From the NCBI GenBank assembly GCA_002402105.1, contig NVVD01000001.1, positions 637,345-701,344 on the forward strand: DNA of 64,000 bases, given 5' to 3'. The notes under the pieces are model-generated. The model saw only the letters and a program-made list of their open reading frames with translations. It was not told where the DNA came from and ran no database searches. This document shows positions 55,960-64,000 of this stretch, piece by piece (positions within the stretch are counted from its first letter, which is position 1; each line of letters starts with the position of its first letter). This DNA is from Candidatus Cloacimonadota bacterium (GTDB taxonomy: Bacteria; Muiribacteriota; UBA6191). Position numbers and translations under genes: made by a program.

Positions 55960-56704
55960 TTAGTATAAAAACCCAAAAATCCAAAGAGGGATTTTATTTT
56001 TATAACCAACTTCGATGTCATCAAAAGCTATAAAACTATTTTCTATATCCTTGATTTGTGAAAAACTTTTCTTGTATCCTCCAATTTCAAATAAAAATTT
56101 ATTATTAACTAAAAAGTCTCCTTTTTTTGGGTAGGTGACATTGTGATATAGGCTAAGAGCATTCAAAAAGAAAGTTTCTCTAAGGGTTCCAACTTCGCAG
56201 TCTAAAATTTGTAGAAGATTTTAGGCTTATATTTAGATTAAGTTCTAAAAACTCTCTAAAGCTCATACCATGCATTTTAAGTATATGAGCCCTTCTACTT
56301 AAATCATGGCTTCCCTGACTTATTTGTAATGCAGAGCTCCCAGAGGCAACAATCTGTAAATCTGGCAAAGAGTCATAAATTGTTTTTAATTCTTGTGACC
56401 AGTTTGAGTATTTATGAATTTCATCAAAACATAAAAGCTGACCACCTTGAGCTTCAAATTGCTTAGCAATTTCAAACATAGATAAATCACCTACAAAAAA
56501 ACTATCCATACTCAGGTAAAGAGATTTTAAACTTTTATTTATCTTCATATATTGGGCGATAGTTGTTGTTTTTCCAATTCCTCTTTGTCCTACAATAATA
56601 GTCAAACGATATTTTATTTTTTTTTCTTTAATAAAATATCTTTGATATGGAAGGGTGTTTTTTTGTAAGAACCTTTTAGATTCTAAGGTGATTTTGGATA
56701 ACAT
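55960..56704 (-). pseudogene. AAA_14 / DUF4143 ATPase with an internal deletion
   Basis: Two fragments of one ATPase family. The N-terminal fragment (56180-56704, 174 residues) has Walker A GQRGIGKTT, Walker B LLCFDEIHKYS and the sensor-1-like VASGSSAL, then ends in unrelated residues and a stop. The C-terminal fragment, in another frame from about 56190 to 55960, has GTLRETFFLNAL, DFLV, FEIGG and a final IPLWIFGFLY, the typical end of DUF4143 ATPases. The family is about 380-420 residues, so roughly 150 residues from the middle (between the AAA core and the C-terminal nuclease-like domain) are gone and the frame is broken at the junction near 56190-56210. Such ATPases often spread by transfer; this copy is dead, although the ATPase half could still be made. 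Confidence 0.8.
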
Positions 56705-57117
56705 TTAAACCTCTTTATTGGTATTTAAAAACTAGCATAGAACATATAAATAGGTAATATATTCCCAATTAAATATTATATTTTGGTATTGTAATACCTC
56801 TTTTAATCATTAGAATTGTTTTTATGAAACAATTACTTATTTTGTTTTATTTGAAAATGGATTACTTCTTTTTTAAAAAATAAAAAATCAAGCTCATAAG
56901 AACCTTTTTTTAGTGGGTTTGAGAGTTTGTGCTAAAAGTAATCTGAATACATTTTATTTAAGGAATAAATTTATTAGCGAATAATATTAAATTTTTGTTG
57001 AAATATTTATGGTCAATTGGTAGATTGACGTTTGATATCTATTAATAGATGTAATTTTGTTGAATTGTAAATAGATTTAAATTTTGAAGTAATTGTTTTA
57101 TTTGAATAGGAGTGTAT
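56705..57117. other. 413-base region without a gene
   Basis: No convincing gene on either strand. It holds a short hairpin GGTATT-GT-AATACC (56785-56798), an inverted repeat GTCAAT/ATTGAC (57012-57029) and a perfect 14-base palindrome ATCTATTAATAGAT (57037-57050) 68 bases before the Kelch-protein ATG. The last two could be operator sites for that gene. The rest is AT-rich and featureless. Confidence 0.35.
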
Positions 57118-59601
57118 ATGAAGTCCCCCCAGTTTTTGTATTTTTTTGTATTTTTTTGTTTGTCGTTGGTAGTAAATTATTCGGCTTCTTGGTCGGTTGA
57201 TGAAGTTAATCCTTATGAAATAGCTAGACAAGAAAATGTAGCAGTTGTAAATGGAAAAATTTATTTATTTGGAGGGTATGGTATAAACTCTAGTGTAGTT
57301 GGAAATATGTATATTTTTGACCCTAATGCTAGTGGAACAAAATGGCAAATAGGAGATTCAAATACTTCTAAATCAAGGCAGAATGCTGGTAGTACTAGTT
57401 GTGAAAATGGTAATATTTATATAAGTGGAGGGCAATCAAATACAGCAGCATTATCAGACACTCTGATTTATGACCCAGATGTTTCAAGTGGTTCAAGGTG
57501 GATAACATCAGTAAGTATCCCAAATTTACCATATCTATTAGCAGGTCCTCGTTCAGTTTGTATAAATAATGTTTTGTATGTAACTGGTGGGATTGCATGG
57601 GGCGGAACTTCATCTTATAATACTTTACATTATATAGATGTTACAAATCCAGTAACTTGGACAACTGTAACAATGGGAGTTACTAGATGGAATCATACAG
57701 CAACTTTAGTTGGAACAGATATTTATCTAACTGGAGGAGTTTCGGGTGACTCTGGTTCTCCTATTCAATCGATTGTTGATGTTTTTGATACTTTGACAAA
57801 TACTATAAGTACTAAAGTAGTGGCAAATTTAAATATTCCAAAATACGGACACTCCTCTGTTTATAACCCTGCTGATGGGCGTATTTATAATTGGGGAGGG
57901 TTTCATTATGATAATCAAGTGGATGTTTTAGATATTATATCAGGTACATGGATATCTGGGGCTGTACCAGATTTATCTTTAACTTATATGTCTTTAAGTG
58001 CCTCTTTAATTAATGATAAAATTTATTTTAAAGGTGGTTGGACAGGTTCTGTTGTAAATAGAATGGATGTCTTAACATTAGATACTTTTGATGGTGGTAG
58101 TGGTGGTGGAAATGGTAACACTTCTGGTACACCAGATTATATAGTAAAGTTTGACTCTAATGGTGGACTTGAAGAGTCTGGAATGTTTCAAAAAAATGGA
58201 TATATTGGAAATGGAATTATTGATCCTTTAGAGTCTTTTGATACAGATGGTGCAATAAAAATTGCTGATACTACATCAAATAATGAAGGAACAATTAAAT
58301 TTACAGGCACAGATTTAGAAGGTTACGTAAACGGAGAGTGGAAATCTTTAACAGCAAGTGGAGTAAATAACCCAGTTACAGCTCCAACTATTTGGTCTGA
58401 AAATGCGAGTAATGAGGCTTATAGAGAAAACTATAATGTTGGAATAGGTACAAGTGATCCATCTTATCGTTTAGAAGTTAATAGTGATACGACAAATAAT
58501 GTTGCTAAATTTACAAGCAATACAAATACCTCTTATGTACGAGTTGAAAATTCAGCAGGAAGCATCCAAATAGGTGCTCAAGATGGAGATTTTGTACAAA
58601 ATGTAGGTGGAATAGAAAGAATACGTATTAAATCAGATGGAAAAGTTGGAATAGGAACCCTAACGCCTACTGAGCAATTAAGTGTTGAAGGTGCAATAAA
58701 TCTTAAAAATACTTCTACAAACAACGCAGGTACAATTAGATATTCAAATAACGATTTTGAAGGCTATGATGGCAGCACTTGGAAATCTTTAACACAAACC
58801 TCCCCAGTCACCAACACAAATGTATGGAGCTTGAATGGTTCAGATACTTTTTATGATGGTGGTAATGTTGGTATTGGTACAAATAGTCCATTTTCAAAGA
58901 TTTCGTATGGTAGCAATGGGACTTTAGATAATGAAAGCAATAGATTAGCTTTGTTTGAGGACTCTTTGGGGAAAGAATTTTATGGTTTGGGGTTAGTATC
59001 ACAAGGAAATACTAGTGGTCTTGGTTTCTGGGGTGGAACAGGAGCGGTAACTCCATATGATGGAAATTCAGGAACTCGTGCTCAAATGGTTTTGGATAAA
59101 AATGGTGTAATAACTTTTGAAGGTCGAGCAAACTTTAAAAGTAAGTTAGGTTTAAGTTTTGAGAGTCCATTTTCAAAGATTTCATATGGTAGTAATGGTT
59201 CTGTAAATAATGAAAGTAATAGATTAGCTTTATTTGAAGACTCTTTGGGAAAAGAATTTTTTGGTTTTGGTTTAGCACAAATAGGAGTTAATCCAGGAGT
59301 TGGAATTTGGGGTGGAACTGGAGGTTCAATACCTTTCAATGGGACAAGTGGAAAAATGCCAGATTTATTTATATCTAAACTTAGTGGAAACGTAGGCATT
59401 GGTACAACAACCACCCCAACAGAAAGACTAGAGGTCGTCGGCAATATTAAAGCCAGTGGTTTTGTACAACTAGGACTAACTACAGGCACTCCAACTGTAG
59501 CATGTACTAGTGCTACTCATCATGGTCGAATGCTTGTTGACCCAACAGCAACACCAGCTCTTTTATGGATTTGTGGTAGTGCGGGATGGATTTCTAAATA
59601 A
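57118..59601 (+). CDS. Exported Kelch-repeat and tail-fibre-like surface protein
   Basis: An 827-residue protein. I use the ATG at 57118, with AGGAG five bases upstream; a GTG two codons earlier is possible. A signal peptide (about 1-24) is followed by Kelch repeats (about 30-325: VVNGKIYLFGGYG, ENGNIYISGGQ, INNVLYVTGGIAWG, VGTDIYLTGGVSG, GRIYNWGGFHYD, INDKIYFKGGW), forming a beta-propeller. A Ser/Gly linker (GGSGGGNGN, about 327-335) leads to a fibre-like half with repeated NVGIGT-x-x-P-x-x-x-L-x-V motifs, found in phage tail fibres and surface adhesins. Residues coded at 58888 onward recur 279 bases (93 codons) later. The C-terminus has a cysteine pair in TVACTSATHHGRM...LLWICGSAGW. Probably a cell-surface binding protein. 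Residual left-arm-like sequence of the hairpin repeat may follow the stop. Confidence 0.75.
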   Translation: MKSPQFLYFFVFFCLSLVVNYSASWSVDEVNPYEIARQENVAVVNGKIYLFGGYGINSSVVGNMYIFDPNASGTKWQIGDSNTSKSRQNAGSTSCENGNIYISGGQSNTAALSDTLIYDPDVSSGSRWITSVSIPNLPYLLAGPRSVCINNVLYVTGGIAWGGTSSYNTLHYIDVTNPVTWTTVTMGVTRWNHTATLVGTDIYLTGGVSGDSGSPIQSIVDVFDTLTNTISTKVVANLNIPKYGHSSVYNPADGRIYNWGGFHYDNQVDVLDIISGTWISGAVPDLSLTYMSLSASLINDKIYFKGGWTGSVVNRMDVLTLDTFDGGSGGGNGNTSGTPDYIVKFDSNGGLEESGMFQKNGYIGNGIIDPLESFDTDGAIKIADTTSNNEGTIKFTGTDLEGYVNGEWKSLTASGVNNPVTAPTIWSENASNEAYRENYNVGIGTSDPSYRLEVNSDTTNNVAKFTSNTNTSYVRVENSAGSIQIGAQDGDFVQNVGGIERIRIKSDGKVGIGTLTPTEQLSVEGAINLKNTSTNNAGTIRYSNNDFEGYDGSTWKSLTQTSPVTNTNVWSLNGSDTFYDGGNVGIGTNSPFSKISYGSNGTLDNESNRLALFEDSLGKEFYGLGLVSQGNTSGLGFWGGTGAVTPYDGNSGTRAQMVLDKNGVITFEGRANFKSKLGLSFESPFSKISYGSNGSVNNESNRLALFEDSLGKEFFGFGLAQIGVNPGVGIWGGTGGSIPFNGTSGKMPDLFISKLSGNVGIGTTTTPTERLEVVGNIKASGFVQLGLTTGTPTVACTSATHHGRMLVDPTATPALLWICGSAGWISK
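58888..59269 (+). repeat. Internal 93-codon tandem repeat in the Kelch/fibre gene
   Basis: The stretch starting CCATTTTCAAAGATTTC at 58888 recurs at 59167, an offset of 279 bases (93 codons). Roughly 100 bases (the PFSKISYGSNG...NESNRLALFEDSLGKEF segment) are nearly identical, with mainly silent differences; the following segment with WGGTG is more diverged. Confidence 0.8.
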
Positions 59602-59772: not shown

Positions 59773-60516
59773 ATGGCTAGATTAAAAAATAAAATTGCAA
59801 TTATAACTGGCTCTGCTAGAGGTATTGGTTTTGCTACAGCTAAAAGGTTTTTAGAAGAAGGAGCAAATGTAGCTCTTTGGGATATTCAAGAAGACTTATT
59901 AAAAAAAGCAAAAGCAGCATTAAATCTAGATGATAGTAGAGTAAAAACTTATGTAGTAGATGTTTGTAATCAATCATCTGTTGAAAATGCTTATCAAGCA
60001 GTTGAAAATGACTTTGGCTCTGTTGATATTATGGTAAATAATGCAGGTATTACAAAAGATGCCATGTTACATAAAATGAATGAAGAGCAATTTGATCAAG
60101 TTATAAATGTTAATTTAAAGGGTGTTTATCTTTGTGGGCAAGCTGCTGCAAAAAGAATGCGTGAAAACGGTAGTGGTGTTATTTTAAATACAAGCTCAGT
60201 AGTTGGTATTTATGGCAATATTGGTCAAACAAATTATGCCGCCTCTAAGTGGGGAGTCATTGGTATGACTAAAACTTGGGCAAAAGAACTTGGTGCAAAG
60301 GGTATTAGGGTAAATGCTGTCGCACCTGGTTATACAATGACAGAAATGATGGAAACGGTACCAAAAAATGTATTAGATACTTTAAAAGCTATGACCCCAT
60401 TAAAAAACTTAGGTCAACCAGAAGATATTGCAAACGCCTTTTTATTTTTAGCATCAAATGAAGCAAAGTTTATCACGGGCCATGTTTTATCAGTAGATGG
60501 TGGATTGACTATATAA
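59773..60516 (+). CDS. fabG: 3-oxoacyl-ACP reductase (FabG-type SDR)
   Basis: A 247-residue classical short-chain dehydrogenase/reductase. The NAD(P)-binding motif is TGSARGIG (about 11-18), NNAG is at about 90, the catalytic Ser is in NTSSVVG and the Tyr-Lys pair in YAASKWGV, then APGYTMTEM and the C-terminal VDGGLTI. All residues typical of FabG are present, so it should reduce 3-oxoacyl-ACP to 3-hydroxyacyl-ACP. GGGGC a few bases before the ATG is an acceptable ribosome binding site. It precedes a ketosynthase-fold gene, a second SDR and an ACP-fusion gene, so it may serve a specialised acyl pathway rather than bulk fatty acid synthesis. A separate promoter follows, so it may not be in the same transcript. 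Confidence 0.9.
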   Translation: MARLKNKIAIITGSARGIGFATAKRFLEEGANVALWDIQEDLLKKAKAALNLDDSRVKTYVVDVCNQSSVENAYQAVENDFGSVDIMVNNAGITKDAMLHKMNEEQFDQVINVNLKGVYLCGQAAAKRMRENGSGVILNTSSVVGIYGNIGQTNYAASKWGVIGMTKTWAKELGAKGIRVNAVAPGYTMTEMMETVPKNVLDTLKAMTPLKNLGQPEDIANAFLFLASNEAKFITGHVLSVDGGLTI

Positions 60517-60619
60517 TTATATATGAAAATGTGGACCAAGTTGTTAAGAACCTATAGCAAGCAATTTAAGATATAAATAGATTAAATATAATCAAAAAGC
60601 TTATTTACCTTCTGTTTTC

Positions 60620-60649
60620 TTGTTAATTCTATAGGTGATATTATATAAT
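60620..60649 (+). promoter_or_regulatory. Sigma-70-type promoter of the ketosynthase-fold gene
   Basis: TTGTTA (60620-60625), an 18-base spacer and a perfect TATAAT (60644-60649), 25 bases before the ATG at 60675. It implies a short leader and an independent transcript for the KS-fold, SDR and ACP-fusion genes. Confidence 0.7.
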
Positions 60650-60674
60650 CTTTTTCTAAAAGAAAAGGGTTTTT

Positions 60675-61925
60675 ATGAGTGATGTATATATTGGTGATAC
60701 TTATTCAATTTCATCTATTGGTTTTGGGATGGACGAAATATTTGAAAATCTTCAATCAGGTAATAGCCCTTTAAAACATCCAGACTCTATTTTGGAGAGA
60801 TCAAAAAGAAATGATGTCCCAGGTAAAATATCAGAAGATAAATTAGATTTATTTCAATTTAAAAATAAAGTTATTTCTAATGGGCCGATTGAAGCTAGGT
60901 ATAATTATTATGCTACATCTAAATTACTTGAAAATAGTGATTTAAAAAAAGCCTTAGAGGGTAGAAAGACTGGATTGTTTATCGGTACAATGAACAATCT
61001 ATATGGAGCAATTGGCTTAAGAAATGGATATCGAGTTTGTGCAGATAAAAACTTAGAGTATGACCCAGATCATTTTATAAAAATGATTGGTACAGGGTTT
61101 TCTTATGTTCATCCGATGATCCCTGTTTATAAAATACCAAATAATGTGATAGCAAACATTGCTCTTGATTTTAATTTAAGCGGACCAAATGCCAATTATT
61201 TTGGTGAAGACTCATCAGCTGTTGCAATACAAGATGCTCACTTTCAAATATCAAATGATTTACTTGATAAATCACTTGTGAGTTCATCTAACTTTTTGTT
61301 TTTAAACTTTTTGGATTTTTTATTAATAGAAGCTGTAGCTTCATTCATTCCAAACCCACTTTTTAATCCAGAAAGCGAAGCTCATTTTTTTGTATCTGAG
61401 TGGGCTTTTTCAGGGGTTTTTGGTAAAAAAGATTTTTTTCAAAAAAATAATTTAAGCATACAGGCTAAATTGCTTGCAACTCATCAAGGCTCTTACATAG
61501 ATAAATATTATAAAAGAAGGGTTCCTGTTGATTATTGTAAACAAATAATAGATAAGACCTTATCAAATTGCTCTTTAAAGATTTCAGATTTAGACTTAAT
61601 TATTGTTGATAACCTAGATCAAGAAAAAGCTCCAATTTCGATATTTAAAGATTTAATGAAAAAAGAAAATGTACAAATACCTATTTTAACTCCCAACTTG
61701 ATTACGGGTCATAGTATTTGTACAAATGCTTCTTCGCAACTTGATATTGCTTTAAAAATTTTAAAAGAGCAAAAAGTGTTTTCATCTTATTTAGATAAAA
61801 ACCATTGCAAGGGTTTATTTACCTCAGAAAATAAACAAATGAAAATAAAACGGATTGGTATTTTTAATCAATCATTAAATAATACGGCACAAATGCAGAT
61901 TATAGAAAAATTTGAAGATAAATAA
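60675..61925 (+). CDS. Ketosynthase-fold protein without the active-site Cys (CLF-like)
   Basis: A 416-residue thiolase-fold protein resembling FabB/FabF. The fold signature SGPNANYFGEDSSAVAI aligns with the family's GPSxxxxTACxSGxxxI, which puts D179 (GAC at 61209-61211) where the nucleophile Cys should be. The first catalytic His region, usually NAHGT, reads VDNLDQ, so that His is also missing; the second His survives in ITGHSICTNAS, though the Lys before it is gone. It therefore cannot do the usual Claisen condensation. The nearest known parallel is the chain-length factor (KS-beta) of type II polyketide systems, which pairs with an active KS-alpha; no such partner is in the window. It has its own promoter and is followed by a second FabG-type reductase (8 bases) and an ACP fusion. 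Confidence 0.75.
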   Translation: MSDVYIGDTYSISSIGFGMDEIFENLQSGNSPLKHPDSILERSKRNDVPGKISEDKLDLFQFKNKVISNGPIEARYNYYATSKLLENSDLKKALEGRKTGLFIGTMNNLYGAIGLRNGYRVCADKNLEYDPDHFIKMIGTGFSYVHPMIPVYKIPNNVIANIALDFNLSGPNANYFGEDSSAVAIQDAHFQISNDLLDKSLVSSSNFLFLNFLDFLLIEAVASFIPNPLFNPESEAHFFVSEWAFSGVFGKKDFFQKNNLSIQAKLLATHQGSYIDKYYKRRVPVDYCKQIIDKTLSNCSLKISDLDLIIVDNLDQEKAPISIFKDLMKKENVQIPILTPNLITGHSICTNASSQLDIALKILKEQKVFSSYLDKNHCKGLFTSENKQMKIKRIGIFNQSLNNTAQMQIIEKFEDK

Positions 61926-61933
61926 GGATAAAA

Positions 61934-62665
61934 ATGAATGTATTGATTATTGGTGGCTCTCGTGGAATCGGTCAGGCAATTGCTGAAAAATATTTAAAAG
62001 AAGGTCATCAAGTTGGTATTAGCTTTAATTCAACTGATCCAGAGTATTTAAAAGAGTACCCTAAAGAGCAATATTTTAGTGGTCAACTTGATGTTCAAGA
62101 TGATCAAAATATTCCTGTGTTTTTTAAAAAATATAAAGAGTTTTCAAAAAATAAGATAGATGTTTTTATTTATAATACTGGTATCACTATTGATGGTTTG
62201 ACGATTCATGCTGATATCAAAGATTTTGATAAAGTCATGGCAGTAAATATTAGAGGTGCTTATTGCTTTTTAAAAGAAGTCGGTTATTTAATGTATTATA
62301 AAAAGAAAGGAAAAATGTTTTTTCTTTCTTCTGTATCAGCTAAAAAAGGTGGACGTGGTCAATTATCATATGCGGCATCAAAAGCAGCACTTGAAGCACT
62401 TGTTAGAGTCGGAGCACAAGAGTTTTCAAGAGCAGGTATTATGGTCAATGCTATAGCACCAGGTATCGTTGAAACAGATATGACAGAGGGTGTTTTGAGT
62501 TACTTAAAAGGCTCAAAAAAGAGTGATGGAATCTTTGACCGAATAGCAATGAGAAGATTAGCTCAACCAAGTGAAATAGCAAACTTTATTCATGCTTTGT
62601 CATCAGAAGAAATAACATATATTACAGGGCAAACATTCAATATAGATGGTGGTTACATGCTATAA
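61934..62665 (+). CDS. Second FabG-type short-chain reductase
   Basis: A 243-residue SDR. The nucleotide-binding motif is IIGGSRGIG (about 4-12), a NTG (usually NAG) is at about 80, the catalytic Ser is in SSVSAKKGG, the Tyr-Lys pair in YAASKAA, and it ends INAIAPGIVETDM-like and NIDGGYML. NAG is changed to NTG in YNTG, a tolerated variant. It has the full catalytic set, so it is probably an active NADPH-dependent 3-oxoacyl reductase. It is 8 bases after the ketosynthase-fold gene and 35 bases before the ACP-fusion gene, strongly suggesting one operon and one pathway. Gene context, not sequence, distinguishes it from the first FabG. Confidence 0.88.
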   Translation: MNVLIIGGSRGIGQAIAEKYLKEGHQVGISFNSTDPEYLKEYPKEQYFSGQLDVQDDQNIPVFFKKYKEFSKNKIDVFIYNTGITIDGLTIHADIKDFDKVMAVNIRGAYCFLKEVGYLMYYKKKGKMFFLSSVSAKKGGRGQLSYAASKAALEALVRVGAQEFSRAGIMVNAIAPGIVETDMTEGVLSYLKGSKKSDGIFDRIAMRRLAQPSEIANFIHALSSEEITYITGQTFNIDGGYML

Positions 62666-62700
62666 AAATATTTGGAAACAAATATTTAAAAAGGAACAAT

Positions 62701-64000
62701 ATGTCAGTAGATAAATTTTTAGAAGTTTCATTTAGCGATGAAGAAGTTTTCAATATTTTGAAAGAAGCCATTGTTGATATTGCAGACTATGAAGATGAAA
62801 TTACAATGGACTCCTACTTGATTGATGATTTGGGTTTAGATTCTTTAGGATTTTTAGATTTATTTTTTACAATTCAAACTACGATTCAAAGAGAAGTATC
62901 TAATCAAGAAATGAGAAACCTTATTTTAGAAGAGTTTGGTTATCAAAATGATCCAGAAATTTTAAAATTATCTGATGGTGAAAAAGATCGATTAGTTTAT
63001 TCAAAACTCCAAGTAAAAAACTTTTATAATTTGATAAAAAAACAATTGGCCAAGCCAGCTGTATTTAAGATGGACTTTTCTAGTAAAATTGATAAAGTTT
63101 TTGATCAAGATAAATTACAAAGTTATTTAAAAGAAAACTTTCAAGATATCAAAAATGAGCAATTAGAGAGTCATTTAAAAAAATATAACATCGTAGATGA
63201 TAGATTATCAGACCTAGTTTCAGAGTCTATTAATAATATAACTCTACATGATATTTTTGATTTGCTTGAAGATAAAAGTTTATTACAAGATATTTTAAAA
63301 GATACTACTTTATCGCAACTTTACGTAGAAGACGAAGAAAAACTTTCTATTAGATTGGATGAGTTAACAGATGAGCTTGGTGAAAACTTAGATGGTGTTA
63401 TTACTAAATTATTTGAAAATGAAGAGTTTTTAGCTGTAGTTTACGATAAAGTTATCAACGAGCAAATAGAGAGAATTTTTGATGAAGAGATGAAAAATTT
63501 AGAAAACTCTCCTGTTGATAACGATACCCTACAACTAATTAAAAATACATTTAATAATGATTTAAAAGACCAAAAAGTCAAAGAAATCATGGATAAAGCT
63601 AATATTGGTAGTGAGTTAATTGAAGATTTATTAACCGAAAATTTTGATGAGATAGCCAAAGAAGAAACAGAGCGTATTTTACAAGATAGTGAGTTGAGGC
63701 AAAAGTTAGTACAAGAGTATATCCGTGAAAATTATGATCCATCAGAAGTTGCTGGTTTAAGTGACCCTAAAAAGATGAGAGAGATTCAAACAGCGATTAC
63801 TCAAAAATATATCAGCGAAAATTTAGATTCTATTATTACAAGATACATGGATAAATACATGGATGAAATGTTAGATGCAGTTGAAGAGGGAGACCTTGAA
63901 ATGCAAGGAGACTTACAAGATGATTTTATGAAATCATTTGCAGGTAGATCCAAAATTTCGGCTAACATGTCTACAGAACAAAGTGAAATAGTAGGTTTTA
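62701..64000 (+). CDS. Acyl-carrier-protein domain fused to a long acidic helical region (runs off the window)
   Basis: A frame open from the ATG at 62701 to the last base, at least 433 residues, with AAGGAAC upstream. Residues 1-80 form an acyl carrier domain: the motif LIDDLGLDSLGFLDL places the phosphopantetheine Ser at S48, in a normal helix-II context. Everything after is charged, helical and acidic, with recurring Y/L-x-x-ENF/ENY/ENL-like motifs (near 63124, 63634, 63721 and 63811). No other enzyme domain is recognisable in the visible part, so this is neither a plain ACP nor an obvious PKS module. It follows the second SDR, closing a KS-fold / SDR / ACP unit. The C-terminus lies outside the window and could hold the catalytic domain. 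Confidence 0.75.
   Translation, partial: MSVDKFLEVSFSDEEVFNILKEAIVDIADYEDEITMDSYLIDDLGLDSLGFLDLFFTIQTTIQREVSNQEMRNLILEEFGYQNDPEILKLSDGEKDRLVYSKLQVKNFYNLIKKQLAKPAVFKMDFSSKIDKVFDQDKLQSYLKENFQDIKNEQLESHLKKYNIVDDRLSDLVSESINNITLHDIFDLLEDKSLLQDILKDTTLSQLYVEDEEKLSIRLDELTDELGENLDGVITKLFENEEFLAVVYDKVINEQIERIFDEEMKNLENSPVDNDTLQLIKNTFNNDLKDQKVKEIMDKANIGSELIEDLLTENFDEIAKEETERILQDSELRQKLVQEYIRENYDPSEVAGLSDPKKMREIQTAITQKYISENLDSIITRYMDKYMDEMLDAVEEGDLEMQGDLQDDFMKSFAGRSKISANMSTEQSEIVGF

Follow-up and report, generated by a model that had tools for sequence, protein, structure and literature searches.

How could a gene cluster of fatty-acid type build a chain when one of its ketosynthase-fold proteins has no catalytic cysteine? 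The question is raised by the right-hand end of a 64,000-nucleotide stretch of DNA (the window) from an uncultivated Candidatus Cloacimonadota bacterium, contig NVVD01000001.1 (G000:C40:637345-701344, where G000 is the source genome, 4.63 Mb in 56 contigs, 95.8% complete with 8.6% contamination). The original prediction placed here a FabG, a ketosynthase (KS)-fold protein, a FabG-like short-chain dehydrogenase/reductase (SDR) and an acyl carrier protein (ACP) fused to a long acidic tail, and this order and the coordinates are right. It also proposed that an active KS should lie beyond the window. We read the gene set past the window edge from the open reading frames (ORFs) of an extended locus, L003 (window number = L003 + 57655), and the expected KS is present (432 aa, with Cys188, His326 and His360). 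We argue that the cluster is probably a specialised type II fatty-acid or polyketide synthase of polyene or very-long-chain type, and that the Cys-less protein is a non-canonical, chain-length-factor (CLF)-like partner (KS-beta) of the downstream KS.

The Cys-less protein and its ketosynthase

The 416-aa protein matches Pfam PF00109 (ketoacyl-synt) at 23.4 bits against a cut-off of 20.8. A profile built from nine relatives matches solved FabF structures, and its third-best solved relative is 6smo_C. In the profile alignment, the catalytic Cys of FabF 1ox0 falls on Glu178 of the partner. No Cys can be re-aligned into the active site, and the protein is Cys-less as first read, but the residue at that site is E178; D179, the replacement named originally, was off by one and is rejected on the FabF alignment. 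Position 178 is Glu in eight of the nine aligned rows, the exception being a Ser in L020 (a KS-like protein from another family of the phylum), while position 179 is D, N, S or A, which argues that E178 is a constrained residue. The assignment rests on the FabF profile alignment together with the ungapped match of EDSSA with CVSSA; alignments made with MAFFT (KS with partner) and hhalign put the Cys site in or beside a gap. At the HGTGT site the partner has DNL, which leaves H346 as the sole catalytic His. The single His described at the outset therefore holds for the partner and its orthologs, but not uniformly for its wider family: this second His is kept in five of nine rows, is Tyr in two (the C25-type copies) and lies in a region missing from two shortened copies. 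Because it lacks the Cys and has one His, the protein cannot condense by the usual mechanism. Its gene is under purifying selection (dN 0.22 and dS 1.6 between the source genome and a sister genome, G001).

The retention of Glu178 in eight of nine rows beside a varying neighbour would also suit a decarboxylase-type subunit, like the KSQ/Gln domains, that would turn malonyl-ACP into the starter unit, Glu178 taking the part of Gln. Indeed, the Gln of the actinorhodin CLF is called intrinsic to starter decarboxylation in a figure legend (PMC6638757). Against this, the partner family as a whole has not kept a catalytic role: the His of HGTGT is gone, Tyr replaces the second His in two copies, and the two short ones lack it altogether. 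We consider a decarboxylase unlikely.

In the downstream KS, Cys188, His326 and His360 are each invariant in six of six aligned sequences. A KS ORF adjoins seven of the eight partner genes by BLAST; the eighth partner gene is at a contig end, where a KS-like stretch was read by eye. KS-CLF heterodimers are described as forming a channel that sets chain length (PMC12664062), and we infer that the two proteins encoded here would pair in this way. The sequence of 6smo_C, which is named ‘Ketoacyl_synth_N domain-containing protein’, holds the AntE peptides printed in PMC6638757, which identifies it as AntE of Photorhabdus. According to a supplementary-figure legend, the position held by Cys in FabF and by Gln in ActI ORFII is Asp in AntE; the same source reports that AntE co-purifies with its KS and that E. 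coli expressing the AntD-AntE-AntF set was used to produce octaketides (PMC6638757). Our cluster resembles AntD-AntE-AntF (PDB 6smo/6smp), as described there, in having a KS with a full-length partner that is acidic at the Cys site and lacks hallmark residues (PMC6638757). It differs in the residue itself, Glu in place of the Asp of AntE, and in its carrier, which in AntD-AntE-AntF is an ordinary ACP.

The Gln found at the Cys site in canonical, actinorhodin-type CLFs is absent from the partner family (Glu in 8/9 rows, Ser in 1/9), and by sequence the protein falls outside the canonical class. Because AntE, a working CLF, has Asp, the lack of Gln excludes only the canonical subclass, and the looser AntE-like kind appears to fit. 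A one-residue gap in the AntE profile alignment sets D179, not E178, on the Asp of AntE, and the equivalence is thus ambiguous by one residue, with the ungapped SSA block favouring Glu178 as the likely counterpart.

A motif-less KS partner is also found in cispentacin biosynthesis, where AmcG has a proposed role in cyclisation and the AmcB-AmcH set, as described, includes a KS, an ACP and a FabZ-like protein (PMC10698177). The Cys-less protein might likewise be a cyclisation factor and the product a carbocycle. The downstream KS matches the AmcF model (1.1e-50), the ACP matches AmcB and the FabZ-like protein AmcE, all below cut-off. However, generic FabF models outscore AmcF for the KS, the partner matches no cispentacin model at E up to 0.1, and the L003 ORFs showed no starter-activating ligase. 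We regard cyclisation as very unlikely and continue with the CLF-like reading.

Carrier, reductive enzymes and membrane partners

The predicted ACP fusion with its long acidic tail is borne out. The best NCBIfam model for the ACP domain is PRK06508 (2.3e-6), and its profile matches solved ACPs (2.4e-5), with a ‘specialized acyl carrier protein’ as best solved relative; Pfam on its own, run on only the 433-aa part inside the window, leaves the ACP below cut-off. The phosphopantetheine Ser, S48, is invariant in 4/4, and the DSL motif is present in three of the four other copies (those printed). The tail, about 765 aa long, is 19.9% acidic and 11.6% basic, matches no NCBIfam family beyond the ACP part, and comes out entirely helical when the G001 ortholog is modelled, albeit at low confidence (mean pLDDT 45.6). 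At a shift of about 130 residues it aligns with itself over residues 131-523 with a score of 70.4, whereas none of 20 shuffles in seven-column blocks scored above 27.5. The long fusion is found over most of its length in four of 39 genomes of the phylum; four others match in the ACP part only.

Reading past position 64000 also yielded a FabZ-like dehydratase alongside the intact KS, but neither a thioesterase nor a dedicated malonyl transferase among the neighbours examined. The FabZ-like protein matches the FabZ model (1.7e-20, below cut-off). The SDR has an 84% identical ortholog in G001, and 63-64% identical copies adjoin another diiron gene elsewhere in two further genomes of the family, G002 and G003, followed in G002 by small membrane proteins and an MBOAT. 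A dedicated ketoreductase, dehydratase and ACP with a KS-CLF-like pair, and no enoyl reductase seen among the L003 ORFs, make up the composition of a highly reducing type II polyketide synthase (PKS) of polyene type. The octaketide (anthraquinone) product of AntD-AntE-AntF is made without dehydratase logic. In aryl polyene synthesis, as reported, ApeO-ApeC acts with a ketoreductase and a dehydratase, and ApeC is a shortened CLF; one copy type in our family likewise has a shortened partner (PMC8358021). Unlike that system (ApeO-ApeC, ApeQ, ApeH-ApeP and two ACPs), the cluster has one large ACP fusion and an additional diiron protein and MBOAT, and no aryl starter genes were seen among the L003 ORFs. 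The original suggestion of a specialised lipid or polyketide made by type II PKS or aryl-polyene logic is thus apt for a KS with an inactive partner, but its aryl side found no starter gene among the neighbours examined.

The carrier leads to another possibility, that the cluster is akin to the rhizobial AcpXL very-long-chain fatty acid cluster. PRK06508, the best model for the ACP, presumably stands for AcpXL, and the best solved relative of the ACP points the same way. In addition, PRK06501 can be aligned with the whole length of the KS, and the sole NCBIfam match of the C25 paralog is a weak one to PRK06519 (E 0.013). The gene sets run parallel, each with a special ACP, FabZ, two KS genes, a dehydrogenase and an acyltransferase (as described in PMC11901934). 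However, no gene exceeds the cut-offs of PRK06508, PRK06501 or PRK06519, and that of PRK06519 is exceeded in 0 of 35 genomes; NF005084 matched every genome of the phylum, none over cut-off, and is not informative. The second KS here lacks the Cys and has one His, the acyltransferase is of another type, and nothing in the AcpXL cluster as described corresponds to the carrier tail, the diiron protein or the MBOAT (PMC11901934). We see kinship with AcpXL as a serious possibility but on balance doubtful, and prefer the polyene- or very-long-chain-type synthase with a CLF-like partner.

The 620-aa protein carries a ligand set, E402, E433xxH436, E485 and E515xxH518, that is invariant in six of six homologues. 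The spacing E, ExxH, E, ExxH is that of ferritin-like diiron enzymes. The ligand helices are as expected in a low-confidence model (mean pLDDT 41.9). No relevant solved structure was matched, and the sole named family is Pfam rubrerythrin, matched by five of six members below cut-off (best E 1.3e-4). The diiron family occurs in four of 381 genomes searched around G000 and three of 380 searched around G037 (two overlapping sets), always within the source family.

The MBOAT gene belongs to the same cluster in both G000 and G001, and the sole NCBIfam match of its product is DltB (E 7.8e-13, below cut-off). In the Dlt system, the DltB MBOAT takes D-Ala from the carrier DltC. The likeness lies in the DltB match and in the presence of a carrier protein in the cluster; unlike DltC, the carrier here would bear an acyl chain instead of D-Ala.

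Several observations weigh against our reading of a specialised synthase with a CLF-like partner. The partner sequence alone matched no solved structure, and its profile ranks FabF slightly over 6smo_C, so CLF membership is not proved by sequence. The partner and its own C25-type paralog are just 26-28% identical. The FabZ-like protein, SDR, KS and MBOAT all fall under curated equivalog cut-offs, and neither structure model (diiron protein, 41.9; ACP fusion, 45.6 mean pLDDT) is good enough for folds to be compared. Among the L003 ORFs we saw no malonyl transferase, thioesterase or enoyl reductase, and the main cluster of G002 has no SDR gene.

Conservation, gene layout and primary fatty-acid synthesis

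The search for the KS-fold protein in relatives, suggested with the original prediction, found full-length close relatives in four genomes of one family among 56 searched, with weak matches in two more genomes of the phylum. The named relatives are metagenome-assembled genomes labelled Candidatus Cloacimonadota and UBP17. The core of partner, ACP fusion, FabZ-like protein and KS is present in 4/4 genomes examined from the source family. The complete cluster of G001 has two small membrane proteins where G000 has four, and its MBOAT gene is upstream and divergent. G002 has the order partner-ACP-FabZ-KS-diiron, and G003 follows it up to a contig end, with the diiron gene behind a KS end on another contig; the diiron gene follows the KS in three of the four genomes. 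Two G002 contigs, C22 (partner-ACP-KS start) and C99 (KS end-SDR-diiron-membrane-MBOAT), look adjacent, which is a guess, as no overlapping bases were found. For eight of nine gene pairs dN is well below dS; dS is saturated in several and not computable in the ninth.

Related sets occur elsewhere. A paralogous set (389-aa ACP fusion, KS and partner) lies on G000:C25 (L005:3084-9503) and G001:C11, where it adjoins a CrtI/CrtD-like FAD oxidoreductase and a cysteine-desulfurase-like class V aminotransferase. A third set, in G002 and G003, comprises an MBOAT, a shortened partner, a 186-187-aa ACP and a KS. Other KS/KS-like pairs, in L020 and L021 (G037 and G026, another family of the phylum), with a FabZ-like gene in L021, represent a different type II cluster. 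Searches of plasmids gave a weak match to a Legionella KS as the sole hit for the partner, nothing for the diiron protein, and 1183 records for the KS, all below 60% identity and of no use for classification; one scan of viral contigs with the KS found no relative.

Since every part of the cluster is FAS-like (fatty-acid-synthase-like), it could in principle be the primary fatty-acid locus, or the Cys-less gene a decaying duplicate. PF00109 finds 10 places in the source genome, among them the FabF of a plsX-fabH-fabD-fabG-fabF-rnc-like order (genes named from length, order and start sequences) on contig C36, away from the cluster, and a second normal FabF at C40:500158. A primary locus with a normal FabF downstream, which would have spoken against the original prediction, is therefore not what follows the window, and we rejected this assignment. 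Decay is contradicted by dN well below dS and by conservation across two genera. Either explanation is scarcely credible. Another of the 10 places, G000:C18 (L083:5520-18999), encodes large multidomain synthases of 1446, 666 and at least 2224 aa that contain several KS domains, and is perhaps a PUFA-synthase-like (polyunsaturated fatty acid) or type I PKS locus; nearby, at L083:100-1875, two tandem ORFs of about 290 aa differ at two positions in their first 60 residues and are probably a recent duplication.

Table 1. Features of the cluster in window numbering (window edge at 64000)
Feature	Coordinates	Strand	Basis or remark
FabG-type 3-oxoacyl-ACP reductase, 247 aa	59773..60516	+	NCBIfam NF004198, 308.9 bits, cut-off 296
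Sigma-70-like match TTGTTA-18-TATAAT, upstream of Cys-less KS	60620..60649 (L003 2965-2994)	+	pattern match
Cys-less KS-fold protein, 416 aa, putatively CLF-like	60675..61925	+	E178 at Cys position, H346 kept, HGTGT site DNL
E178 codon (catalytic-Cys position)	61206..61208	+	alignment to FabF 1ox0
FabG-like SDR (ketoreductase), 243 aa	61934..62665	+	TIGR01830, 187.4 bits, below cut-off
ACP (S48) fused to long acidic helical tail, 874 aa	62701..65325	+	crosses window edge
FabZ-like dehydratase, 146 aa	65322-65762		past window
Intact KS, 432 aa	65759-67057		directly after FabZ-like gene
Ferritin-like diiron protein, 620 aa	67064-68926		after KS
Four small membrane proteins, 185-197 aa, hydrophobic segments	68935-71238		hydropathy scan
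DltB-like MBOAT, 379 aa	71309-72448		NCBIfam DltB

From the Cys-less KS gene through the last small membrane protein gene (Table 1), neighbours overlap or are spaced by a few tens of bases at most. The neighbouring FabG is 88% identical in G001, but there the divergent MBOAT gene stands between it and the rest, so its operon membership is uncertain. The promoter proposed after FabG does exist as a sigma-70-like match, but such matches are no commoner in the region than expected by chance (63 matches, where the chance mean is 69.3, sd 7.6). Immediately before the cluster, window 57112-59601 encodes an 829-aa protein in which Kelch repeats precede GIGT-type tail-fibre-like repeats. At 55960-56704, on the minus strand, a short AAA-ATPase-like ORF of 174 aa and the 68-aa ORF that comes after it on that strand look by eye like a broken ATPase gene. 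At L003:16061-16528 lies a 155-aa secreted-looking protein of Cys/Asp-rich CDGG-DDD repeats, also read by eye.

A proposed route and its implications

In the route that we propose, the housekeeping FabD would presumably load malonyl units on the ACP domain at the N-terminus of the 874-aa carrier. The Cys-less partner would pair with the intact KS, whose gene is the fourth one downstream, and shape the cavity for the growing chain, with its conserved Glu178 placed at the position of the KS nucleophile. KS and partner would then condense, the SDR reduce and the FabZ-like protein dehydrate. Because no enoyl reductase is encoded beside the cluster enzymes, the chain would be a polyene or be finished with a borrowed reductase. 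The ferritin-like diiron protein probably desaturates or oxygenates the ACP-bound chain, which the DltB-like MBOAT and the small membrane proteins may then pass to a membrane or envelope acceptor, a step suggested by DltC-DltB transfer and by cluster membership. The repetitive helical tail of the carrier could serve as a scaffold keeping the enzymes and the membrane exit together.

A bolder version, which we put forward tentatively and consider rather improbable as a whole, is a family-restricted synthase whose carrier is its own scaffold. The ACP, carrying tandem helical repeats of ~130 residues over a length of about 390, would dock the KS/Glu-CLF pair, the ketoreductase, the dehydratase and a new class of diiron acyl-ACP oxidase, and would hand the chain directly to the DltB-like MBOAT. 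If this is true, a type II system, whose components are normally free, would here run as an assembly line that is tethered and coupled to the membrane.

Makers of pigments and antibiotics follow a logic of this kind, but the partner set appears new; none of the papers listed by our searches describes this cluster, judged from titles and abstract openings. What sets the cluster apart is a conserved Glu, a repetitive tail on the ACP, and a diiron protein and an MBOAT as partners. The Glu at a dead active site, kept in full-length and shortened partners, makes the role of that residue in inactive KS subunits testable, and an ACP fusion of this size and repetitiveness suggests that the carrier of a type II synthase can itself serve as the tether.

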